Shown piece after piece: positions 1-22,770 of a DNA stretch of 64,000 bases (the stretch's first letter is position 1; the number at the start of each line of letters is the position of its first letter). Source of the DNA: Desulforhabdus amnigena (GTDB lineage: Bacteria; Desulfobacterota; Syntrophobacteria; Syntrophobacterales; Syntrophobacteraceae). The DNA is taken from the NCBI RefSeq assembly GCF_027925305.1, contig NZ_BSDR01000001.1, positions 2,259,001-2,323,000 on the forward strand, in the 5' to 3' direction. A program made the position numbers and the translations under genes. A model generated the notes under the pieces. It was not told where the DNA came from, searched no databases, and was given only the letters and a program-made list of their open reading frames with translations.

Positions 1-450
1 TTTTTATGAGAAACCTTCGCCGGCCATCCTATATCCAAGAAAAAGACGGGAAACCCATTCTTTCTCGCGATCGAGGTGTGATCGCTCTTTGTCGCCCTCC
101 CTGTTGCATGACGCATTCCATGAACAGGAAAGGAACGGCCCCCATGAGTAAAAGCACGTTAGGTGTTGCGTTTCTCCCGCCAACAGAGGTATAAAACGCC
201 CACTTGGGGCCTTGATTCGATCCTCCCTCCAAGGGCGCACACATGATCAATGAAACGACTCATGTTCTTTGTCCGCAAATTTTACGGCAAAACACATGAA
301 AAGGTCCTTTTACAAGTTCCGGAGTGTCAAGAGGAAAGAGAAAGAGCTATAGAGGATCTCCATTCGGTTTTCAGAATGAATGGAGCATTCGCGTGCCGGC
401 GTAATCCCTTCCCATCTTTAATAATAAAGGATATCTGAAAAAGGAGCCTC
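1..450. other. No gene recognised at the left edge
   Basis: Short open frames on both strands overlap each other. None has a convincing ribosome binding site or a sequence I recognise. A 62-codon frame at 250-438 precedes the first stress-protein gene but looks like chance. The stretch may be the tail of an upstream intergenic region plus the leader of the gene at 451. Confidence 0.5.
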
Positions 451-939
451 ATGGATAGCTTTCTCGTTACTTTGGATGGGACGCACGGTTCCCTCAAGAG
501 CATCCGCTACCTCAACCGCATCTTGAAGGGAGCGAAACATATTCGCCTGGTCCTCTTTCATGTAATTCCAACGACCTCGCCCAATCTCCTCAAGAAAGAA
601 GAAGTCCAGAGGATCGAGAAAATACATGCAGAACAAGCTCACTTGAGGGGTTATTTCTGGACCAGGGAAGACGAAGACAGAATGAATCTTGCCTTTCAGG
701 AAGCGAGACAATTGCTTCTGGAAGGAGGATTTTCGAATGCTCAGGTCACTACCCGTTTTTCCGTACAATCCGCCGAGGTGGCGCAGGTCATCTTGGAGGA
801 AGGCAAAAGGCTGGAATGTTCAACCATTGTGATCGGCCGGCGAGGATTGAGCCGGGTTAAAGAATTGTTTTTGGGAAGCGTTTCAAAGACTGTCACCAAA
901 TTGGCGAGATCGATGACCGTGTGGGTTGTCGACGACTGA
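451..939 (+). CDS. Universal stress protein, UspA family
   Basis: A 162-residue single-domain Usp protein. The N-terminal strand-loop (SFLVTLDGT) has the family's usual aspartate. Near the C-terminus lies the ATP-binding pattern G-x2-G-x9-G-S (GRRGLSRVKELFLGSVS), so it probably belongs to the nucleotide-binding Usp class. Family members are cytoplasmic and respond to starvation or redox stress; the precise role is unknown. AAGGAG sits just upstream of the ATG. A second Usp gene follows after 39 bp, so the two are probably co-transcribed. The pair is divergent in sequence, so it is not a recent tandem duplication. Confidence 0.85.
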   Translation: MDSFLVTLDGTHGSLKSIRYLNRILKGAKHIRLVLFHVIPTTSPNLLKKEEVQRIEKIHAEQAHLRGYFWTREDEDRMNLAFQEARQLLLEGGFSNAQVTTRFSVQSAEVAQVILEEGKRLECSTIVIGRRGLSRVKELFLGSVSKTVTKLARSMTVWVVDD

Positions 940-12519: not shown

Positions 12520-12653
12520 GAAATTATCTCAAAATTCACTCATACCGTCACCCTGGCGGAAGCCAGGGTCCAGCTCTATCGGGAATGCCTGGATTCCGGT
12601 TTTCACCGGAATGACGATCAAGGGTATTCGGACCGTTTTGAAATAGTTTCTAA
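12520..12653. repeat. Family D palindromic repeat, copy 1
   Basis: A 134-bp unit with two internal hairpins, CACCCTGGCGGAAGCCAGGGT and the CTGGATTCCGG...CCGGAATGACG type. Its ends are related: GAAATTATCTCAAAA at the left and TTTTGAAATAGTTTCTAA at the right. It starts at the coaE stop codon. The IS701 element is inserted at its right end. The inverted second copy is at 32573-32708. Confidence 0.8.
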
Positions 12654-14138
12654 TACTACAACCGCCATATGTAAAATGCCGCACTTCCGGATATATTATA
12701 AGGTAGAGAAACCTTCGGAGGTAACGGTCATGACGTTGAAAGAGTTGGATTATTGGGAAGATTCTTTTCGGTCCTTTCATGCTCGTTTTTCTCATCTATT
12801 CCCCCGGGCGCAATCTCGGGAACAGTCGGCAAAATACCTTCACTCCTTGCTTGCACCCGTTGAGCGCAAGAACGGCTGGCAGATGGCTGAGGCCATAGGA
12901 GATAAGAGACCGGATAAGATGGAAAGGCTGCTTTACCGAGTGAACTGGGATGCGGATGAGGCACGGGATATTTTGGAGCAGTTCGTGATCGAGAATTTTG
13001 CAGACCCGGAAGGAATTGGAGTCGTAGATGAGACGGGTTTTATCAAAAAAGGTGATAAGTCTGTCGGGGTGAAAAGACAATACACGGGTACGGCCGGGAA
13101 GGTGGAAAACTCTCAGGTGGGAACCTTCCTCACCTATTCCTCGGCCAAAGGACATGTGTTCCTGGACAGAAGACTCTTTCTTCCCGAGGACTGGGCCAAT
13201 GACATGGTAAGACGCAAGGGGGCGAAGGTTCCTGATGAGGTGGTGTTTGAGACCAAGCCCGAACAGGCCTTCTCGATGCTCGATCATGCCTGGAAAATGG
13301 GTGTCCCGATACGCTGGGTCACAGGAGATGAGATCTACGGGGATTCTCCGAAACTTCGAGCAGCTATCCAGGAGAGTGGACACTGGTATGTCTTGGCAGT
13401 CTCTTGCAATACCCCCGTTTGGACCAGGCGACCGTTGCTCCAACAGCCCTTGCGCAAAGGGATGGGCAGGCCACCCACAAGGGTACGGTTGGCCAAGGAT
13501 GCTCCGCATGCCGGGACGGTGGCTGAGGTGGTGATGGGATGGTCTCCTGATGTCTGGAAGCGGTTCAGTGTGGCAAAAGGAGAAAAGGGACCGAGAACTT
13601 ATGACTGGGCAAGGGTTCGTGTGATCGAGAGCCGTGGCAAGCTCCCCGGACCTGAGGTCTGGCTTCTGGCCAGACGATCTGTAGCCAAACCCGAAGAAAT
13701 GGCCTACTACCTTTGCTTTGCTCCCGAGAATGTTCCTCTCACTCGTCTTGCCCAGGTGGCATCGACCCGCTACACCATTGAGCAATGCTTTGAGGAAGGC
13801 AAAGGAGAAGCCGGGCTTGATCACTATGAAGTCAGGTACTGGCACAGCTGGCATCGTCACATTACCCTCTCTATGATGGCCCATACCTGGCTGAGCTCGA
13901 TCCGGGCTTCGGAGGAGGGGAAAAAAAGACGCAGAGCTGGCCGAGCTGACAGTTCCAGAGGTGAGGCGACTGCTTGAAATCGTTCTGCCCTTGCCAGTAC
14001 ACTCTCCTGAATTTCGGTTGGCCTGGTCCCGCTGGAGACGAAAAAGAAGGCTTCAGGCCCGACAAAGTCACTATCGTTCTCGATTCTTGGGGTGCACATT
14101 GAAGGTATGCTCATTCTAATCATATGGCGGTTGTAGTA
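12654..14138 (+). mobile_element. IS701-family insertion sequence, complete, 1485 bp
   Basis: Perfect 18-bp terminal inverted repeats, TACTACAACCGCCATATG at 12654-12671 and its complement at 14121-14138. The 4-bp direct duplication CTAA occurs at 12650-12653 and 14139-14142. A 4-bp YTAR-like duplication and the transposase sequence fit IS701. It sits exactly at the junction of family D and family C repeats. Confidence 0.93.
12730..14119 (+). pseudogene. IS701-family transposase, frameshifted near the 3' end
   Basis: The start at 12730 is preceded by GGAGG 8 bp upstream. The first frame runs to 13977 and holds the DDE-5 features: DETGFIKKGDKSVGVKRQY, then TGDEIYGDS and a C-terminal IEQCFEEGKGEAGLDHYEVR block. 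At 13921-13927 there is a run of seven A after GGGG. The family C-terminus (VPEVRRLLEIVLPLP, LAWSRWRRKRRLQARQSHYR) continues in the +1 frame and stops at 14119. Six A would restore one frame. It is either an inactivating indel, slippage on the A run, or an assembly error. Confidence 0.8.
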
Positions 14139-14313
14139 CTAAGCACTGATCTTCGCAATTACACAGCCGTTTCATTCGTTTACCCCTGCGTTTTTGTAGG
14201 AGCGGCATCCTGCCGCGACAAAGTATGCGATTGCCGGTTCCTGTCACGGCTGGAAGCCGTTCCTACAAAAAAATGGCCGCGTATTTACAATTTTCGGTAT
14301 TAAGAACCTATCC
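14139..14313. repeat. Family C repeat, copy 1, with a truncated family B end
   Basis: The core palindrome TAGGAGCGGCATCCTGCCGCGAC...GGCTGGAAGCCGTTCCTA lies inside longer imperfect ends (CTAAGCACTGATCTTCGCAA on the left, TTTACAATTTTCGGTATTAAG on the right). Directly after it come about 14 bp of the family B terminus (TTAAGAACCTATCC), four bases before the ppiD stop codon. Other full copies are at 30806 and 59545. Confidence 0.85.
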
Positions 14314-14316
14314 CCC

Positions 14317-16215
14317 CTACAGTTCTTTATATATCTCAACCTTGGCCTTGGAGCGCTCTTCCTCAATCCAGGACTGCCACAACATTCCCTGTTTCATCTG
14401 ATACAGGCGCCTGCTGATGGAATCCCGTTCCTTCTCCAATCCCTCCTCAGAGGACTTCTTGCCCAACAACTGAACGACGGCATAACGGTTTCCCAGCGAG
14501 AGAGGCGCTTCGGGGAAAGGATTCGATTCTTCCATTTGGAATACCGAATTGAGAGCATTTCCCTGCAAAAGCAGTAAATCATTATCGGGCTCGCGGCGTG
14601 AGAACCAGTCGCTTTTCCTGACATCCATCTTCATCTCCCTGGCGGCTTGTTCCAGACTCTTGAGATTCTTCGCCGCCGAGAGCAGCTCCGAAGCTTTCGC
14701 CTTTGCCAGTTCACCCGCTTTCTCTTTCTTTAAATCCTCCTGAACGCGATCTTTCACTTTCTCCAGGGGCGGAACCTGGGGCCCTTGAACAGCCGTCACT
14801 TCAGCAACCAGATAGCCTTCGGGAGTTTCCAGAACATCACTGACTTCTTTTTCCCCCAGGGCAAAAATCTTTTTCATCAGGGCGGGATCCGCTTCCTTCA
14901 GGCCGGAAAGTGAATCGCTTTCACTCACCCACACTCCATTTCCCATCAGCTGCACCTTCTGTTCTTCAGCCGTTTTGCCGACGTCCTTCCGGGCATAAGC
15001 GACATCTTCGAAGGCCTGCGCCTTCTCGTAGGCAAGCTCCCGCGCTTTTTCCTCTTTCAAAGACTTCTCGATGGCGGCCCTTGCCTCTTCCAGAGATTCT
15101 GTCCTTTCGGGTCGAACATCCTCCACTTTGATGATGTGAAATCCATAGGGACTGCGCACCAAATCGCTTATTTGTCCCGGTTTCATGGCGAATGCCGCAT
15201 CGGAGAAGGCGTCAACCATTTCATGGCGCTTGAAATACCCTAAATCCCCACCATTCTGAGCCGCCGATGGGTCCTGGGAATATTTCTTAGCCAACTCGCT
15301 AAAGTCCTTACCTTTTTTGACTTCATCCAGCACTTTCTGGGCTTCGGAACGGACCTTTGCAACCTCTGCCTCGGGAGCATTCTCCGTTACGATAAAAAGG
15401 ATATGGCGTGCGTGCACTTCCGGTTCATGATGGTACTGATCCTTATTTTCTTCATATTTCTGCAGAATTTCATCGTTCGTGACCTGCACATTGGCCAGGT
15501 AATCGTCGGTTTTGAAGAGCACATAAGAAATCTGACGTTTCTCAGGATCTTTATACCGGTCCTGATGCTCCTTGAAATAGGTTTCTACGGCCTTTTCATC
15601 TATGGTAACCTGGTTTTCATAGGACTTGGGGTCCAGGATCACGTAATCCAACTGAATGGTACTGTGGTTGAACAGAAAATCGGAGCGGATTTCTCCTTCC
15701 GTCACAACGGCCTGACGCTTGATGAAAGATTCCAGCTTTCGAGTCGTCAGGTCTTCGGCCAGTTTCTGTTCAAAGGCTTCAGGGGTAAGACGGTTTTGCT
15801 GCAAAACCCGCACATAGAGGTTTTGATCAAACTTTCCATCTTTCTGGAAAACGGGATACTCGAGAACCTGGTCCTGGATCTCCCGCGTCGTGGCGGTCAG
15901 CCCCAATTCCTGTGCCGCTTTGGTAAGAACATAGCGGTTGATCAGCATGTCCAGGGCCTGCTTTTTAAGGTTGAACCGGCGAATCAGATCTTCGGAAAAC
16001 GCATCCCCGAATTGGCGGCGATACACTTCGAGCAACTGATTGTAAGCCTGGTTATAGTCGTTGATGCTGATGTAATGATCATCGACACGAGCCATCTGGC
16101 TTGCTTTCTGCGAATTATAACTGTAGCCGCCCCAAAAGATGAAAACGATGACGATGAGGAAAAGAGCGACTTTGATCAGCCATGATGTTGCGTGCTTTCT
16201 GAAAAGATTGAGCAT
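14317..16215 (-). CDS. ppiD: PpiD-like membrane-anchored peptidyl-prolyl isomerase
   Basis: A 632-residue periplasmic folding factor. The N-terminus has one membrane anchor (residues about 14-32, WLIKVALFLIVIVFIFWGGY). A SurA_N-like chaperone domain follows (LLEVYRRQFGDAFSEDLIRRF), then a parvulin rotamase domain at about 260-365 (HARHILFIV, GGDLGYFKRHEMVDAFSDAAF, YGFHIIKVEDV) and a long helical C-terminal part. It matches PpiD in order and length, and should assist secreted proteins emerging from SecYEG. It is the last gene of a minus-strand run with the PLDc_N protein 25 bp upstream. Confidence 0.9.
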   Translation of the reverse strand: MLNLFRKHATSWLIKVALFLIVIVFIFWGGYSYNSQKASQMARVDDHYISINDYNQAYNQLLEVYRRQFGDAFSEDLIRRFNLKKQALDMLINRYVLTKAAQELGLTATTREIQDQVLEYPVFQKDGKFDQNLYVRVLQQNRLTPEAFEQKLAEDLTTRKLESFIKRQAVVTEGEIRSDFLFNHSTIQLDYVILDPKSYENQVTIDEKAVETYFKEHQDRYKDPEKRQISYVLFKTDDYLANVQVTNDEILQKYEENKDQYHHEPEVHARHILFIVTENAPEAEVAKVRSEAQKVLDEVKKGKDFSELAKKYSQDPSAAQNGGDLGYFKRHEMVDAFSDAAFAMKPGQISDLVRSPYGFHIIKVEDVRPERTESLEEARAAIEKSLKEEKARELAYEKAQAFEDVAYARKDVGKTAEEQKVQLMGNGVWVSESDSLSGLKEADPALMKKIFALGEKEVSDVLETPEGYLVAEVTAVQGPQVPPLEKVKDRVQEDLKKEKAGELAKAKASELLSAAKNLKSLEQAAREMKMDVRKSDWFSRREPDNDLLLLQGNALNSVFQMEESNPFPEAPLSLGNRYAVVQLLGKKSSEEGLEKERDSISRRLYQMKQGMLWQSWIEEERSKAKVEIYKEL

Positions 16216-16240
16216 GACTCGGTTGTGCCTCCTTTTTTGG

Positions 16241-16450
16241 CTATCGGATTTCCAGGGGTTCCGTATGGCGTCTCATGAGCAAAATATACAGCACAGCACC
16301 CAGGAAGGGCAAAGTCGATACCGTCAGAAACCAGAGGATCTTTTTCCCGGGACTTGAAAAACGTCGCTTGGGAATGTCCACCAGGGCCCAGAAAGTGGGA
16401 ACCAGGGGAATGGCGAAGATAAAGAGAAGAATCAAAATCTTTACAGGCAT
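16241..16450 (-). CDS. Two-TM small membrane protein, PLDc_N domain
   Basis: 69 residues with two hydrophobic helices (ILILLFIFAIPLVPTFWAL and ILWFLTVSTLPFLGAVLYIL) separated by a basic loop with PGKKILWF. It matches the phospholipase D nuclease N-terminal (PLDc_N) domain, which is often encoded alone; no catalytic HKD motif is present. Role unknown, possibly a membrane regulatory subunit. It sits 10 bp after the dynamin-like GTPase gene and 25 bp before ppiD. Confidence 0.75.
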   Translation of the reverse strand: MPVKILILLFIFAIPLVPTFWALVDIPKRRFSSPGKKILWFLTVSTLPFLGAVLYILLMRRHTEPLEIR

Positions 16451-16460
16451 TTATCATCCT

Positions 16461-18179
16461 TCAGTCGCGTTTCGGCAAAACGGACACCAGCGAAATTTCC
16501 GCTTCAACTTCCCGATCCAACTCCACCAGGCAGTTGATGATCAAATCGAATTCTTCCTTATAGATTCTTTTGACCTCGAATTTGAGAGAATCTATAAACT
16601 TTTGCGCACGCCGCTGCAAGGATTTCTTGTAGCGTCCATAAAAGCGCAAACCCAGGAAAAGCTGCAGCAGGAGAAAGCTCCCCAAAGCCGCCAGACCGAC
16701 GGGGCTGAAAATCGTCCGGGTCATGTGAGAAACCAGGTCAACCCATTGAGCCCATCCCGGGTCTTTCAGAATCCCACTCCAGGTTTCCCCCCCGAGCGAC
16801 AGCAAAAATCCCAGAAAGACAAGAAAATAAACACCATACTGCATTGCGAGAAAGCCCCTGAATTTCTTTTTTTCATAACCCGATAAACGCATCTGCACAT
16901 AACGATGCATGCGACCGGTCAAAACATCCCATCCCCCTTCTGCATTCACCTTTTCTTCCAGTTCGGAGGTAAAAGCCGCGGGGAGCCCGCGTCGAAGCAG
17001 TCGATTCGCCATGCGATCTTCCCACCTTTGCAGCTGGCGCCGCATGGGAGCAAGTGAACCTTCCTCCCGGAATAAGTCGGGCAGCCCGATGCCGGCGTTA
17101 TTTCCCACGGCTTTCTTTTGCCACGCGCTCATCAAAAGGGCAATACCGTACCCCGGACCCACCAGGCAGGAGGCATCGGACAGCCATGAAAGCGCATGGG
17201 GTTTCAAGTCCTGCTCGATCCAGTGTTCCAGGCTTTCTTCGGCTGTCCGGATCCATTCAGAACGGCCTTCTTCCAGTTCCACAACCATCTCTTTGAGAGC
17301 CTGGCGGAATGATTCCAGGTAGAGGATCTCTTTTTCCAGGACGAGAAAAAATTGCTGTATCTCCACATCCAGGTTTGCAGCCTTGATGGCCAGGACTTCC
17401 TTGATGTCGCGTTGCTGAAATATCTGGTTCCGAAGAGCCGGAAACTGATTCCATGGACCGGAAGAACCGGATGCCGCAGCGTCGCGGACTGAAACGGCAT
17501 AGATGAGTGGATGCGCGATCCCGTTTTCCGAAAGATGCTCTTGAAACCGCCCGGTCACTCTCACCAGGCTGTCGTAGCCGCCTTCGGACGTCTGATCCCC
17601 GAAAAACAGATCTACTTTATTGAGAATGAAATAGTAATTCTCATGGGCCTTGGGAACATCCCTGAGAAAGTCATAGAAGCGGCCGTCCGCGTATTTCTCG
17701 GGAGAGGTCACCCACAAGAGCACATCCAAATGTTCCAGAAAACTCAAAACATGCCGACGGTGCTCCCCCACCAGGCTGTCAAAATCGGGAAGATCACAGA
17801 GGATAATCTGTCGGACGGACCCGGCGTCATGCCGTATCTCGCTCCAGGGAACAGTGGTCTTTTGGAGGGCCGAAGGAAGCGGTACGGTTTCATGGCAGTA
17901 GATCAGCACCTGCTCCGTATGAGGGCGGCGGTGGCTCGTGGAGGCTATCTCCCGGCCGGCCAGGGCATTCATGAGGCTGGACTTCCCGACCCCCGTTCCG
18001 CCCAGGAGCCCAACCGTCAAAAAGCTCTCTCCCAGTACGTCAATTTTTTGGAGAAGTTTTTGGGAATCCCCGAGCAACGCCTGCCTCTCCGCAGGCTCCA
18101 GGGAGAGCAGGCTTCCCCGGTTCAACAATTCCTGAATTTGAGTGAGACCTGTTCGATACTCCTGAATGGGATCCCCCAT
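16461..18179 (-). CDS. Dynamin-like GTPase with C-terminal membrane segments (1)
   Basis: A 572-residue protein with a G domain: P-loop GGTGVGKSS (about 60-68), DLPDFDS as the G3 box and NKVD as the G4 box. A long helical middle follows, then two strong hydrophobic segments near residues 470-490 and 515-535 (FLVFLGFLLSLGG and VGLAALGSFLLLQLFLG) and a short helical tail. This is the plan of bacterial dynamin/YfjP-like membrane GTPases, which reshape or stabilise membranes. A second, diverged copy lies upstream at 19905-21659, and paired genes are typical of bacterial dynamins. The specific function is not known. Confidence 0.75.
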   Translation of the reverse strand: MGDPIQEYRTGLTQIQELLNRGSLLSLEPAERQALLGDSQKLLQKIDVLGESFLTVGLLGGTGVGKSSLMNALAGREIASTSHRRPHTEQVLIYCHETVPLPSALQKTTVPWSEIRHDAGSVRQIILCDLPDFDSLVGEHRRHVLSFLEHLDVLLWVTSPEKYADGRFYDFLRDVPKAHENYYFILNKVDLFFGDQTSEGGYDSLVRVTGRFQEHLSENGIAHPLIYAVSVRDAAASGSSGPWNQFPALRNQIFQQRDIKEVLAIKAANLDVEIQQFFLVLEKEILYLESFRQALKEMVVELEEGRSEWIRTAEESLEHWIEQDLKPHALSWLSDASCLVGPGYGIALLMSAWQKKAVGNNAGIGLPDLFREEGSLAPMRRQLQRWEDRMANRLLRRGLPAAFTSELEEKVNAEGGWDVLTGRMHRYVQMRLSGYEKKKFRGFLAMQYGVYFLVFLGFLLSLGGETWSGILKDPGWAQWVDLVSHMTRTIFSPVGLAALGSFLLLQLFLGLRFYGRYKKSLQRRAQKFIDSLKFEVKRIYKEEFDLIINCLVELDREVEAEISLVSVLPKRD

Positions 18180-18193
18180 CGCAAGACCTCTTA

Positions 18194-18276
18194 GATAAAA
18201 AAGCTCATGGGTTATGGCTCATGGCTCATGGCTCATGGCTCATGGGTTATGGGTTATGGGTTATGGGTTATGGTCT
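18194..18276. repeat. Heptad tandem repeat (family E-type)
   Basis: About eleven consecutive 7-bp units in two variants, CATGGCT-type followed by TTATGGG-type, immediately upstream of the dynamin-like GTPase gene and directly next to a family A repeat. The arrangement resembles the short tandem heptamers known from cyanobacteria, but with different sequences. Confidence 0.85.
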
Positions 18277-18342
18277 GAACCACGGAGACACGGAGGGCAC
18301 GGAGAAAGACCTTCAAATGAAATCTCCGTATTCTCCGTGGTC
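18277..18342. repeat. Family A palindromic repeat, copy 3
   Basis: GAACCACGGAGACACGGAG and the complement TCTCCGTATTCTCCGTGGTC. It continues through GTGACAATGTCGCAT into the family B repeat beginning at 18361. The same tail follows copy 5 at 59525. Confidence 0.85.
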
Positions 18343-18423
18343 AATGTGACAATGTCGCATTAAGAGCCTATCCGAAAACCTACCTCGGCAGCGGCCCCCC
18401 CCTTTAATTCCCCCCTCGAGGGG

Positions 18424-19844
18424 ATTGGCGTCAGGTTAAGAATGTTTTCCTTCCATTCTGAAGACTTACATTTAAATGTGTCCATCAGTTAAATGAGGTC
18501 TTCAGAAGGAGGAAAAACAAATGAAGGACAGCCAATTGATTCCTGTTGAAAACATGGACATTAAACTCGATGACGCAACTCTTTTGCTCAAAGCCAAAGA
18601 AACTGGCTTCATGAAGCGCATCAGAAAGTTTAATCCATTCGATTTCATAAAGGCTCTCTGCCTTATGACTCTCTACAGCACAGTCAGTCTTGAAGTATTT
18701 GCCACAATTCTGGGGTTTGTTGCAGGCTCTTGCATCTCAAAGCAATCCCTCTGGGAGAGGATAACCCCCAAATGTGTTGCTTTTGTGCGCTCAGTGCTCA
18801 TGTCACTCATGTTTAGAGCATCCAGCCTGGAACCTCTCACAGCCAAAGGGGCATTCAGTCGTTTCAAGAGGGTTCTCCTCCAGGACAGCACTACCATTAA
18901 CCTGCCCGAGAGTCTGGTTCGTTTCTTCCCCGGCTCAGGTAATCAGACGGGAAAGGTGCAAGCAATCATGAAAATTCAAGTCATCCATGATTTGCTCTCG
19001 CAGACTTGCCTTCATTTTGGGTTAAGTGGTTTTAGAAGAAACGATCAGAAAGCCTCTGCCGATATTCTTAACTTTGCCAGGCCAGGGGATCTTGTCATCC
19101 GAGATCTTGGCTATTTCGTTCTCAACATATTTAGATTATTTACCCGTCAAGGAATCTACTTCCTTACTCCCTATCAGCATAATGTTAATTATTATACAGA
19201 AGATGGAGAAAGACTCGATCTCCTTAAACTTCTCAAAAAACATCCTATTGTGGATACCATGATTGTAGCAGGAGCTACGGAGAGACTGCCGGTTAGACTC
19301 GTAGCCTCCCCTGTGCCTGCAAACATTGCCCAGATAAGGCGAAGAAAGCTCCTCAAGAAGGACAGAAGGTCCAATCCTACGAAAGAGCAACTCGAACTCC
19401 TTGGATGGGATATATTCCTCAGCAATGTTGGGGAGGATATCTGGGATAGCCTGACTGCATGCAGAATCTATGGCATCCGTTGGAGAATAGAGATTCTCTT
19501 TAAAGCATGGAAGAGTCACTTCCACCTCAACTCTTTGCCCCAGAAGGGGAGCAAGAGCTATATCGAGCTTCTTGTCTACTCAAGGCTTGTCTTCATCACT
19601 CTCTTTCAGTCTTTCTTTGCAGAATTCAGCGCATATGCTTATGCCACTGAGGGCAAACATCTCAGTCTTTTGAAATTTGCTCAGTTTATCCAAGAACATA
19701 TCTGGGCTCTTATCCTTTTATTCCACTCATCTCAGATGCCAAATCTTTTCCTTGAACAGCTACTCAGGCATTGTGCCTATGAATCACGTCATGAAAGGAA
19801 AAACTACCATGAAAAACTCTCTAATTTCTTAACCTGACGCCAAT
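18424..19844 (+). mobile_element. IS4-family insertion sequence, complete, about 1421 bp
   Basis: The terminal inverted repeat ATTGGCGTCAGGTTAAGAA is at 18424 with its complement ending at 19844. It is flanked by CCCCTCGAGGGG on both sides (18412-18423 and 19845-19856), read as a 12-bp target duplication. Because the target is itself palindromic, the exact boundary could shift by a few bases. 10-13 bp duplications are normal for IS4. Confidence 0.88.
18521..19837 (+). CDS. IS4-family transposase
   Basis: A 438-residue DDE transposase. The first Asp is in LLQDSTTINLPESL, the second in LVIRDLGYF, and the IS4 signature Y-x2-R-x3-E-x6-K is in YGIRWRIEILFKAWK. It has an AGGAGG-like ribosome binding site. 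The frame is intact and the ends are well preserved, so the element may be active. It separates two dynamin-like GTPase genes that would otherwise be neighbours, and it points against their direction of transcription. Confidence 0.92.
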   Translation: MKDSQLIPVENMDIKLDDATLLLKAKETGFMKRIRKFNPFDFIKALCLMTLYSTVSLEVFATILGFVAGSCISKQSLWERITPKCVAFVRSVLMSLMFRASSLEPLTAKGAFSRFKRVLLQDSTTINLPESLVRFFPGSGNQTGKVQAIMKIQVIHDLLSQTCLHFGLSGFRRNDQKASADILNFARPGDLVIRDLGYFVLNIFRLFTRQGIYFLTPYQHNVNYYTEDGERLDLLKLLKKHPIVDTMIVAGATERLPVRLVASPVPANIAQIRRRKLLKKDRRSNPTKEQLELLGWDIFLSNVGEDIWDSLTACRIYGIRWRIEILFKAWKSHFHLNSLPQKGSKSYIELLVYSRLVFITLFQSFFAEFSAYAYATEGKHLSLLKFAQFIQEHIWALILLFHSSQMPNLFLEQLLRHCAYESRHERKNYHEKLSNFLT

Positions 19845-19904
19845 CCCCTCGAGGGGGGACCAAGGGGGGTGTCGCAAAGTTCACAGGTGGTTTCCGGATA
19901 GGTT

Positions 19905-21659
19905 CTAAGAATCCCCCCAAAGATCTTTCTCCAGATTCCGCAATCCCTGTATCGTTTCATCTGAAGTCATAAGGGATTCCAGGCAACCCGCGTAGCGCTC
20001 TTTTTGCCGGCGGACCACGGAGATCAAGCCCTCCTGATATCTTTTTCCCAATTCACGGGCGATCTTCTGGAGCTCCCGGTAGGCAAACAGTTCCACAGCC
20101 CCTTTCGTTACGAAAGGGGCAATGGCGGAATCCAAAACGGCTTCCATGATGCTGATCCCTCCCCCGATGGCGGTTTCGAGAGCGAGGATCAGCCCTCCCC
20201 AGAGGATGGATGTGGAATATATCCCCCATTCCTTGCTCTTGGGAATCCCCCGGGCCAGATCCTGGAAAGTGCGTTCCAGCCAGCCGACGAGTTCATCCTG
20301 CTCTTCCTCGACCGCTTTTCCGATCTCCTCGTCCGTCAGAGCGACGCCCTCCGCCCGAAGGTGTTCGAAAAGAGGCGCTGTCGGATCGGCAGGCGAAAGC
20401 TTTTCCAGCACGGACCGGTTGAAATTCTCTATGGCTGCGTGGATCGGCAGCAGGTCGATTCTCCCGCGAATCCTCGCCAGCGCCTCTTCGCGCGATTCCT
20501 GAGCCCGCTCGCCCACGATCCCCAGGAAGCGAAGGGGCATACGAATGATGTCGGAAATGAAGCGGCGGGGTTTCCTCAACAAGTCGTACTCGGCAAACGT
20601 ATCACGAACCTGCCGCTGAAGGTATGCCCGGGTCTCTTCATTGAGATGCTCCTCCTGTTTTTCATGAAGGACCCGGCACGCCGACCGGAAGAAAACATCC
20701 AACCGGTCCAGCCATCCCTGGGCTGCAAGCCTTTCATTCTTCAGGTGATCGAGCAGAAGCCGGAATTCTTCTTTCCCCTTCTCCCGGTCTCTTTTTCTTT
20801 CCTCCCGGAGAAGATTCAATCCGTTCTGCCTGGAGAGTGCCTGGAAAAATACTCTCCGGAATTCGGAGAACCCCGGCTCTTCGAGAATCTTCGCCGATAT
20901 ATCGGAACGCAGATAGGGCAAGACATGGAATCGATCCCCGGACAGTTCGACGCCCTGCTCCCGGAAAACTGCCAGTACATCCCCGGGAATGGAGTCCTCC
21001 TGTGCTTTGTTGAGGAGAAGGAAATAAGATTTTGCATCCTTCCGGATGCGTCCCAGGAATTGAAATGGAACATCATCCGCATACTTTTCCTGGCTTGTCA
21101 CGAACACGACCACATGAGCCAGGAGATAGAGTTCCTCCACCATACGGCGGTTTTGCAGCTCCAGGCTGTCCAGATCGGGAGTATCTACAAGGACAAGATG
21201 CGCAAGATCCTCTCTCGAGTGTTCAGCGATCAGCAACCTGCCGGCGGAGCCCGTCGAAGCGGCGGCACCGGCAGGACCCTGCCGAACCCTTCGGATTTCC
21301 ATGGAATCGAAGGGAAACCCTTTCTCTATGAGCGCATCTCGATGAACATACGCGATGGGGCCATACGTCTTGGGCCTTTCCACCCCCGTTTCACTCAGAT
21401 GCTTTCCACAGATGGCGTTGAAGAGAGTGGATTTCCCCGTGCCGGTTCCCCCGATGAAAACCACCCAGACCACCCCTGTGGAGCTCTTGTAATGGAAGGC
21501 TGCGGCCTTCCGGGGAATTTCCTTCACCAACCGCAGGACTTCCCCTGCGGAAGGAGTCAATCCGGGGCATTGCACCTTATCCCAGAGTGACGGACCGGGA
21601 GAGATCGTTGTACGCATTTTGGATTCCAGCGATTTATCGAGTGACGGCATCGGCTTCAC
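19905..21659 (-). CDS. Dynamin-like GTPase with C-terminal membrane segment (2)
   Basis: Up to 584 residues. The start is uncertain between the GTG at 21659 and ATGs at 21650 and 21617, of which only the last avoids the upstream gene. The G domain has P-loop GGTGTGKST (about 70-78), DTPDLDS as the G3 box and NKAQ where NKxD is expected, an atypical G4. A helical stalk of Glu/Arg-rich coils follows, then a Gly-rich hydrophobic segment (STSILWGGLILALETAIGGG and following) and a basic tail. It is distantly related to the GTPase at 16461. Its stop codon lies in the family B repeat. Confidence 0.75.
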   Translation of the reverse strand: MKPMPSLDKSLESKMRTTISPGPSLWDKVQCPGLTPSAGEVLRLVKEIPRKAAAFHYKSSTGVVWVVFIGGTGTGKSTLFNAICGKHLSETGVERPKTYGPIAYVHRDALIEKGFPFDSMEIRRVRQGPAGAAASTGSAGRLLIAEHSREDLAHLVLVDTPDLDSLELQNRRMVEELYLLAHVVVFVTSQEKYADDVPFQFLGRIRKDAKSYFLLLNKAQEDSIPGDVLAVFREQGVELSGDRFHVLPYLRSDISAKILEEPGFSEFRRVFFQALSRQNGLNLLREERKRDREKGKEEFRLLLDHLKNERLAAQGWLDRLDVFFRSACRVLHEKQEEHLNEETRAYLQRQVRDTFAEYDLLRKPRRFISDIIRMPLRFLGIVGERAQESREEALARIRGRIDLLPIHAAIENFNRSVLEKLSPADPTAPLFEHLRAEGVALTDEEIGKAVEEEQDELVGWLERTFQDLARGIPKSKEWGIYSTSILWGGLILALETAIGGGISIMEAVLDSAIAPFVTKGAVELFAYRELQKIARELGKRYQEGLISVVRRQKERYAGCLESLMTSDETIQGLRNLEKDLWGDS

Positions 21660-22629
21660 TTCGCGGGTTTGCCCTCAAATCCTCGGGCAGGGTTTTGGAA
21701 AGGGGCTGATAGAGGGAAAAGAGCCAGTCTCCCCTGGAAGTTCTCAAAAGCCACCTGGAGAGCAAAGCGCCTGGAAATCTCTTCTGCTCCTCGACTTCAT
21801 CCAGACTGAGGAAATGTTTCTGCAGGCGAAACCATCGTTTGTAGAGCAGGTGAATCGCCGTGGAGGTGATCACCACCCTCAGGGGGGTGAACCTGCGAAT
21901 GCCGGGAACACGAACAGCATAAGCGGGGCCCGTCCAAACCAATCTTTCCTTGTTCCCCTTCTGCTCTTCCCAGAAAGTATTCCATGAAAAGGGCAAGAAT
22001 CGAGACATCGCCCATGGCGTATCCTTGGCGAAAAAGCACTTGATTCTGAAGAACACGGCGGAAAAGAGCATTCGCAACGTCCGGAAGATCAGAGGCATCA
22101 CCAGCAGGATGATGCCGAGACACACCAAGGTGAGGAAAAAGCTCAAGACGGGGTGAGCCAGACAAAGGTATGCAAAACCGACGGCCCCGACATCCTCCCC
22201 AAGGCTGATCAGGATATTGGAGAAGGGTTCCGGGCTCGTGTTGACGATCAGGCGGGTCCCGGCCTTCGTAATGTGAGCGGCGGAAGCCAGACTCGCGCCC
22301 AGCATGAAAACGATTACTTCCAGGGCGGGAGAAGCCTCCCCCACCTGCATCACCGCCAGCATAGCCCCTCCCAGGGGGCGAATCAGGGTATGAATGGAAT
22401 CCCACAGGGTATCCAGCCCGGGAATCTTGTCGGCGAAAAATTCAAGCAGATAGAGAAACACCGCAATGAATATCACCACATCGTTGCCGAGCACGCTCAG
22501 TTCCGGCGGAAGCCCATGGACGAGATTGAATTTACTGCAGAAACCCACCACGGCGACCGTCGCATAGAGGTTGATCCCAGAAATAAAAGAGAGTCCGAAA
22601 AGCGAACCGAGTTTTGCAATGATTTCCAT
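21634..22629 (-). CDS. DUF4126 integral membrane protein
   Basis: 331 residues from the ATG at 22629 (GGGAG five bases upstream); the frame is open further upstream but only through a family E repeat. The N-terminal two thirds match DUF4126: GLSFISGINLYATVAVVG, then LEFFADKIPGLDTLWDSIHTLIRPLGGA and several TM helices (about six). A basic cytoplasmic tail of about 110 residues follows. Function unknown. It overlaps the start region of the dynamin-like gene by up to 26 bp, so the two are probably translated together, which makes it a candidate membrane partner of the GTPases. Confidence 0.8.
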   Translation of the reverse strand: MEIIAKLGSLFGLSFISGINLYATVAVVGFCSKFNLVHGLPPELSVLGNDVVIFIAVFLYLLEFFADKIPGLDTLWDSIHTLIRPLGGAMLAVMQVGEASPALEVIVFMLGASLASAAHITKAGTRLIVNTSPEPFSNILISLGEDVGAVGFAYLCLAHPVLSFFLTLVCLGIILLVMPLIFRTLRMLFSAVFFRIKCFFAKDTPWAMSRFLPFSWNTFWEEQKGNKERLVWTGPAYAVRVPGIRRFTPLRVVITSTAIHLLYKRWFRLQKHFLSLDEVEEQKRFPGALLSRWLLRTSRGDWLFSLYQPLSKTLPEDLRANPRSEADAVTR

Positions 22630-22639
22630 TTTAACTCCC

Positions 22640-22770
22640 ATGACCGGAACGGTCATAACGAAAAATGAAAAAGGCAAAGAGATGCAAGCCAATATGGAAA
22701 GCAGAAAACGCTCTTGAAAAGCGATGTTATCATGAGCCATGAACCATGAGCCATGAGCCTTTTTTCATAT
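22640..22770 (-). repeat. Family E element, copy 3, upstream of the DUF4126 gene
   Basis: Read on the minus strand: ATGAAAAAAGGCTCATGG, three further 7-bp units, GATAACATCGCTTTTCAAGA, a central stretch, then the palindrome TGACCGTTCCGGTCA, just upstream of the start codon at 22629. It is nearly identical over about 130 bp to 28022-28165, which is not followed by a gene. Confidence 0.9.

Follow-up and report, generated by a model that had tools for sequence, protein, structure and literature searches.

A candidate asymmetric pair of dynamin-like GTPases and a putative membrane receptor in Desulforhabdus amnigena and its relatives

Do five neighbouring genes of Desulforhabdus amnigena, encoding a DUF4126 protein, two dynamin-like GTPases, a PLDc_N protein and a PpiD-type isomerase, form one membrane-remodelling unit, as proposed in an initial annotation, or does a smaller system lie within them? 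The genes are located at 14317-22629 of a 64,000-nucleotide stretch of contig NZ_BSDR01000001.1 (the window). All five are on the minus strand, and their order of transcription is DUF4126X, GTPase 1, GTPase 2, PLDc_N and PpiD, with an insertion sequence (IS) between the GTPase genes. We consider it probable that the two dynamin-like GTPases form an obligate asymmetric pair, which acts at the inner membrane together with a lineage-specific membrane receptor, DUF4126X, which is a DUF4126 membrane protein with a C-terminal extension. In the genomes searched the two GTPases are present or absent together and appear to be a strictly co-inherited, unequal pair.

Distribution and folds of the two GTPases

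GTPase 1 (19905-21659) and GTPase 2 (16461-18179) are both encoded in intact reading frames on the minus strand. Strong matches to both proteins (E < 1e-70 for GTPase 1 and < 1e-38 for GTPase 2) were found in the same 30 of the 55 genomes of the class (Syntrophobacteria), while the other 25 had neither; at E 0.001 the counts are 32/55 and 35/55, the weaker matches being excluded as other GTPases. In 26 of the 30 pair-bearing genomes the two genes form a tandem on a single contig, which far exceeds chance. The two genes are on separate contigs in G017 and G019, where contig ends are a possible cause, and in G027 and G028, with the GTPase 1 of G027 distant from any contig end. In eight genomes (seven Desulfomonile-type and one other) GTPase 1 has no adjoining GTPase 2, and in all eight GTPase 2 is encoded elsewhere (E 1.9e-109 to 5.5e-100). 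In the named collection GTPase 1 is present at 63/63 Desulfobacterota-type loci, 46 of which also have GTPase 2; several of the remaining 17 end at contig edges. Among 17 more distant loci, both GTPases are present at 10, and DUF4126, PLDc_N and PpiD at none. The exact four-nucleotide overlap of the GTPase 1 and GTPase 2 genes occurs at 15/52 loci. Desulforhabdus sp. TSK (L127) is the closest named relative among the best 80 of 170. One in-frame TGA is present within GTPase 1 in each of two genomes of the same genus (G280:C282:7963-9570 and G259:C174:217-1821), for which a pseudogene, an error or recoding are the candidate explanations.

The Pfam family Dynamin_N (cut-off 27 bits) matches GTPase 1 with 34.7 bits and GTPase 2, barely, with 27.2 bits; GTPase 2 also matches MMR_HSR1 (31.3 bits, cut-off 21.9). 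Three relatives gave 41.2 bits for a GTPase 2 and 26.0 and 24.0 bits for two GTPases 1. AlphaFold models were based on alignments of 64 GTPase 1 sequences (the window and 63 of 73 listed) and 52 GTPase 2 sequences (the window and 51 of 55), and had mean pLDDT values of 82.8 and 84.5 and pTM values of 0.78 and 0.66, respectively. In Foldseek searches the best match of GTPase 2 was to BDLP (2j69, E 1.1e-12), with Cj-DLP (5oxf) at E 1.4e-10, and GTPase 1 matched BDLP at E 5.0e-9. VIA-align comparison of GTPase 2 gave Z 21.0 and rmsd 4.2 over 303 aligned residues with Mfn1 (5yew), spanning 1..572, and Z 20.7 with Fzo1; GTPase 1 aligned to Fzo1 (9kfd) with Z 21.2 and rmsd 4.5 over 291 residues, spanning 24..584. 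This second structural comparison holds among the matches listed, and other families may also match. In the predicted models the Mfn1 and Fzo1 matches cover the neck-forming helices of both ends. Full-length TM-scores by query are 0.22-0.42 among the matches listed, low values being expected because these are hinged proteins.

The hydropathy profiles of the two proteins are unequal. GTPase 2 has two hydrophobic segments (residues 444-462 and 493-511; 16647-16850) located N-terminal to the last long helix, a candidate hairpin seen in the window protein and in the members sampled, while GTPase 1 has a single stretch (residues 490-508; 20136-20192) in a low-confidence region of its model. According to the models, the likeness to Nostoc BDLP1, mitofusin and Fzo1 includes the G domain, the N- and C-terminal neck helices and the candidate GTPase 2 hairpin before the last long helix; the differences are an identity of only about 12-18%, the G3 motif and, in GTPase 1, the G4 motif. 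Both GTPases are thus predicted to have dynamin-superfamily folds of the mitofusin/Fzo1/BDLP type, and the dynamin-like reading of both in the initial annotation is borne out by these models.

A different explanation would be that these are membrane GTPases sharing the G domain alone with dynamins (IRG-, septin- or Era-like) and having no remodelling activity. Consistent with this, the top PDB matches of the sequence profiles are to Era, Der and IRG proteins and, in NCBIfam, the members mostly match Era and Der, weakly. The structural alignments argue otherwise, as the Z scores near 21 for Mfn1 and Fzo1 extend over about 290-300 residues with the end helices, compared with Z of about 15-16 over about 160 residues for the plain G proteins Era and EngB, and we regard a role based on the G domain alone as very improbable. 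Single-protein sequence searches of the PDB gave no useful match. As for named dynamin families, GTPase 2 falls far below the cut-offs of the LeoA/HP0731 family NF041922 (13.7 against 325 bits; 12/52 GTPase 2 members match at E 0.001) and of the Bacillus DynA equivalog NF052648 (36.7 against 1600 bits, with a best stretch of 70 residues).

Motif asymmetry and ancestry of the pair

The translations from the window contain the P-loops GGTGTGKS (GTPase 1) and GGTGVGKS (GTPase 2) and the DxPDxDS boxes DTPDLDS and DLPDFDS, respectively; these motifs and the C-terminal hydrophobic segments had been described in the initial annotation and are seen in the translations and hydropathy profiles. The two proteins differ in G4, which reads NKAQ in GTPase 1 (residues 217-220; 21000-21011, minus strand) and NKVD in GTPase 2 (residues 187-190; 17610-17621, minus strand). 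In the GTPase 1 alignment the N and K are each present in 64/64 sequences and the Asp at position 220 in just 10/64, whereas the Asp of NKxD is present in 52/52 GTPase 2 sequences. The NKAQ noticed earlier in the upstream GTPase is therefore real but is not an oddity of a single protein, the loss of the Asp being family-wide. Together with the co-occurrence, this asymmetry in G4 supports the earlier view of the GTPases as an adjacent unequal pair.

Both proteins also depart from the usual G3 motif, with the Gly of DxxG replaced by Asp (DxPD) in all 64 GTPase 1 and all 52 GTPase 2 sequences, so that neither family has DxxG. In G3, DxxG is a general GTPase motif that is usual in dynamins but does not define the fold. 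The EKY within an SxEKYAD box is close to invariant in both alignments. The genome also encodes a third dynamin-like protein, with canonical DTPG and NKID motifs, which argues that the G3 and G4 changes are specific to the pair. This 873-residue protein (G000:C1:3492080-3494701; L263 2581-5202) matches Dynamin_N at E 5.2e-27 and has a C-terminal DUF6062.

Comparison of the two alignments with hhalign gave a probability of 100% and E 4e-44 over 456 columns, which is most of their length. In a tree of 57 selected sequences that did not include the actinobacterial ones, GTPase 1 and GTPase 2 form two clades split at 100/99, each of which contains members from the Desulfobacterota, Planctomycetota and Omnitrophota. 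Judged by these comparisons, GTPase 1 and GTPase 2 are ancient paralogues. The actinobacterium Nonomuraea gerenzanensis has two tandem pairs with the same gene order, a four-nucleotide overlap and the same asymmetry: NKxD is absent from the first gene, and the second keeps the N..D and has two hydrophobic segments near the C-terminus. In a tree of 34 selected sequences that included the actinobacterial ones, the first gene of each pair clusters with GTPase 1 and the second gene with GTPase 2, at moderate support (87/87; 90% of 200 bootstrap trees). These two pairs (L275 and L276) are on an 11.85-Mb record that is listed as a plasmid and is unannotated in the collection.

The DUF4126X domain and the neighbouring genes

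The DUF4126X gene (21634-22629, minus strand) encodes 331 residues from the ATG at 22629 and matches PF13548 with 167.6 bits (cut-off 27.5); it overlaps the GTPase 1 gene by 26 nt and is found directly upstream of GTPase 1 in the genomes of the class. DUF4126 itself is present in 33 of 297 genomes of the phylum and adjoins GTPase 1 in only eight, all in the order seen in the window. The form associated with the pair is longer (317-344 residues at most loci), its C-terminal part being a domain of about 110 residues, which corresponds to 21634-22011 (minus strand) in the window. A profile of this domain found one copy each in 26/55 class genomes, every copy being just upstream of GTPase 1 by coordinates; the domain is therefore present in 26 of the 30 pair-bearing genomes and in none of the 25 without the pair. 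In two of the four pair-bearing genomes without it, G014 and G015, GTPase 1 is at a contig edge, and in G030 and G032 the domain is absent. In the phylum, where up to 15 candidates per genome were scored (<=15), the domain is present in 10/297 genomes, all with GTPase 1 and all in the window's order. G052 and G053 encode the domain alone, as a gene of 160 or 164 residues (first-start open reading frames) upstream of GTPase 1 and with the DUF4126 part absent; such a stand-alone domain is upstream of GTPase 1 at loci L079/L169 and L080.

By this distribution the C-terminal part of DUF4126X, of about 110 residues, is a new domain and a constant partner of the pair. DUF4126 had been suggested as a membrane partner of the GTPases; the linkage of the gene with the pair stands, but the constant part is the C-terminal domain and not the membrane part. 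The extension has no Pfam family over the cut-off and no convincing match in the PDB. A PH-like fold, suggested by eye, is unsupported: hhalign against four bPH_2 proteins gave a probability of 5.4%, and the family scan of the window's extension found no Pfam match. Matches to bPH_2 occur in 5/54 class genomes and to bPH_3 in 0/54.

Downstream of GTPase 2 are PLDc_N (16241-16450, minus strand), which encodes 69 residues with two hydrophobic segments and matches PF13396 with 39.7 bits (cut-off 23.3), and the PpiD-type peptidyl-prolyl isomerase (14317-16215, minus strand; Pfam SurA_N_3 and Rotamase). A longer open reading frame that overlaps PLDc_N (16457-16176) is in a different frame and is not the PLDc_N gene. 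By hydropathy there is one hydrophobic segment in GTPase 1, two in GTPase 2, two in PLDc_N, five in DUF4126 and one in PpiD. Short spacing on one strand, with gaps of 10 nt from GTPase 2 to PLDc_N and 25 nt from PLDc_N to PpiD, is what first suggests that all five genes form one membrane-remodelling unit in which PLDc_N and PpiD are working members. The coordinates and spacings given in the initial annotation, short or negative except at the IS, were confirmed. Among the pair-bearing genomes PLDc_N is downstream of GTPase 2 in 27/30 and PpiD in 24/30 (some with contig edges), and G027 and G028 are split into DUF4126X-GTPase 1 and GTPase 2-PLDc_N-PpiD on separate contigs.

The genomes that do not have the pair give a different answer. 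PLDc_N is directly upstream of PpiD in 14/14 genomes of the same family without the pair, and a PpiD match is present in 24/25 class genomes without the GTPases. In eight of the 14 a divergent OB/HD gene is within 1.5 kb, only 98-458 nt from PLDc_N, an interval with no space for DUF4126X, GTPase 1 and GTPase 2. One of the eight, G031, keeps the last 81 residues of a GTPase 2 immediately before PLDc_N, and this remnant is found at 3634-3879 of L223 (also 8056-8301 of L251), in a genome without the cassette. Because PLDc_N and PpiD are kept without the GTPases, what is missing from these genomes is DUF4126X, GTPase 1 and GTPase 2, and PLDc_N and PpiD are independent neighbours, judged to be outside the GTPase unit. 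The flanking genes holB and coaE are equally conserved and plainly unrelated. The five-gene unit is thus largely refuted, and we think there is very little chance that it is correct. Conservation of the neighbourhood, as a check of the five-gene proposal, supports the co-occurrence of the GTPase pair with DUF4126X, but not the inclusion of PLDc_N as a membrane partner or of PpiD as a member.

The IS between the GTPase genes (18409-19859, plus strand) is likewise outside the system and makes up 1,451 nt of the 1,725-nt gap. It encodes a DDE_Tnp_1 transposase (18521-19837) and is probably a recent insertion, since its 34-nt inverted ends are exact and there are six full or near-full copies, at 100% identity, in the 4.54-Mb genome. 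Imperfect tandem 7-nt repeats of the GCTCATGG/GTTATGG type are located upstream of GTPase 2 (18203-18272), and a copy in inverted orientation precedes the DUF4126 gene (22731-22764). A second insertion-like element (12651-14141), with a DDE_5 transposase (12676-13977) and 21-nt inverted ends, is in the interval between coaE and ppiD. Scans for promoters and terminators gave no more signals than in shuffled sequences.

Proposed working and relation to known systems

We infer the biochemistry of the pair and of DUF4126X as follows. The two-segment hairpin of GTPase 2 would anchor it in the inner membrane, and this protein would be the standard, guanine-specific GTP-binding subunit. GTPase 1 has a single, weaker hydrophobic stretch and in most cases no base-specifying Asp; it would be the peripheral member and would complete, with GTPase 2, a heterotypic G-domain dimer. 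The C-terminal domain of DUF4126X is the putative receptor that would dock GTPase 1 on the membrane, and assembly-stimulated turnover, acting from the cytoplasm, may then lead to tethering, bending or fusion of inner-membrane surfaces. In this view PLDc_N and PpiD would be bystanders kept nearby by synteny.

Several findings weigh against the proposed pair and receptor. DUF4126, PLDc_N and PpiD are all absent from 28 of the 46 Desulfobacterota-type pair loci, and the pair is found in just 25/297 phylum genomes at E 1e-10, with four candidates per genome scored. The pair persists in G030 and G032, where the DUF4126X domain is missing, and thus does not depend on the receptor. The DxPD in place of DxxG in all members suggests that GTP hydrolysis is not assured. 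Confidence is low in the trunk of the GTPase 1 model, where blocks around residues 340-390 and 470-530 have pLDDT 53-67. Lastly, two results that favour the pair, the correlation of 0.94 between the GTPase 1 and GTPase 2 distance matrices (44 Desulfobacterota-type pairs) and the Fisher value of 1.1e-11 for co-occurrence, both ignore shared phylogeny.

Tandem dynamins are already known: most bacterial dynamins are encoded as side-by-side pairs (PMC6104087, PMC4159319), and the statement to this effect in the initial annotation agrees with both papers. The Campylobacter jejuni pair, Cj-DLP1 and Cj-DLP2, is active on hetero-assembly and tethers liposomes (PMC6104087). Like the window pair it is side by side and of similar fold, and Cj-DLP structures are among the best Foldseek matches of both models. 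It differs in that Cj-DLP1 has its own assembly domain, whereas the window pair has DxPD in G3, and the accessible part of the paper describes neither a G4-degenerate partner nor a DUF4126 receptor (PMC6104087). In mycobacteria, IniA and IniC are dynamin-like GTPases that share their operon with one further gene, which is IniB and not DUF4126X (PMC6715688). The IniA structure is among the fold matches of the window GTPases, but no IniA was found in the profile-to-PDB search at E 0.01.

Streptomyces DynA and DynB, compared here by description, are encoded by unequal paired genes; DynB has two transmembrane segments, partners with DynA and binds divisome proteins, and the role is in sporulation septation, with DUF4126X unmentioned in the part of the paper available (PMC8748795). 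By analogy, the window pair could stabilise septa at the division site or bring them to completion. Homologous tandem pairs that are asymmetric in the same way do occur in actinobacteria. None of the contexts examined showed a recognisable division gene next to the pair, and related genera live without the pair, for which reasons we think a division role unlikely. LeoABC of enterotoxigenic Escherichia coli likewise has tandem dynamins, for which hetero-dimerisation was proposed by the authors (PMC4159319), but differs from the window pair in its LeoA family, as scored above, and in its neighbours. A role in stress or anti-phage defence, as for LeoABC in PADLOC, would fit the patchy distribution and repeated absence of the pair, and weak PADLOC matches were obtained to LeoBC (0.0005) and LeoA (3e-5). 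These are, however, weak G-domain matches, no defence genes were recognised adjoining, and the fixed site between housekeeping genes in several families and the correlated divergence of GTPase 1 and GTPase 2 make defence improbable. A vesicle role is a further rival beside these two.

Outside the Syntrophobacteria, a CDP-alcohol phosphatidyltransferase is encoded directly upstream of GTPase 1 at L146, L147, L149 and L150, that of L149 being pgsA (NCBIfam). At the Desulfomonile-type loci L268, L269, L270, L272 and L273 a 385-residue FtsX/MacB-like permease (Pfam assignment from L268 and L272) follows GTPase 2 directly on the same strand. Neither neighbour is general, and no role is named for them, but they suggest envelope biology.

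To return to the asymmetric pair with its receptor, the literature search found no description of this GTPase pair, subscription journals being mostly outside its coverage. As far as such searches show, the new features would be the G4 degeneration of one partner across phyla, the DxPD in both partners and the domain found only with the pair. A wider generalisation, which we put forward tentatively and hold to be more doubtful than probable, is that asymmetric dynamin pairs form a family that extends across phyla. In this family the first partner, without guanine specificity, would be an obligate and catalytically degenerate activator of the second, and the Syntrophobacteria would add a DUF4126X-domain membrane receptor that recruits the first partner.

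In bacterial dynamin pairing, the division of labour is here legible in the sequence, with the Asp of G4 kept in one partner and usually lost in the other, and this asymmetry together with the joint presence and absence makes the contribution of each partner directly testable. The DUF4126X domain, among the searched genomes found only with the pair, is a candidate dedicated receptor for a bacterial dynamin and, as far as the literature search shows, provides a first proposed context for DUF4126. The locus is a clear new test case for membrane bending or joining in bacteria and, if the wider generalisation is true, would show that bacteria have an equivalent of the mitochondrial receptor-plus-dynamin logic.

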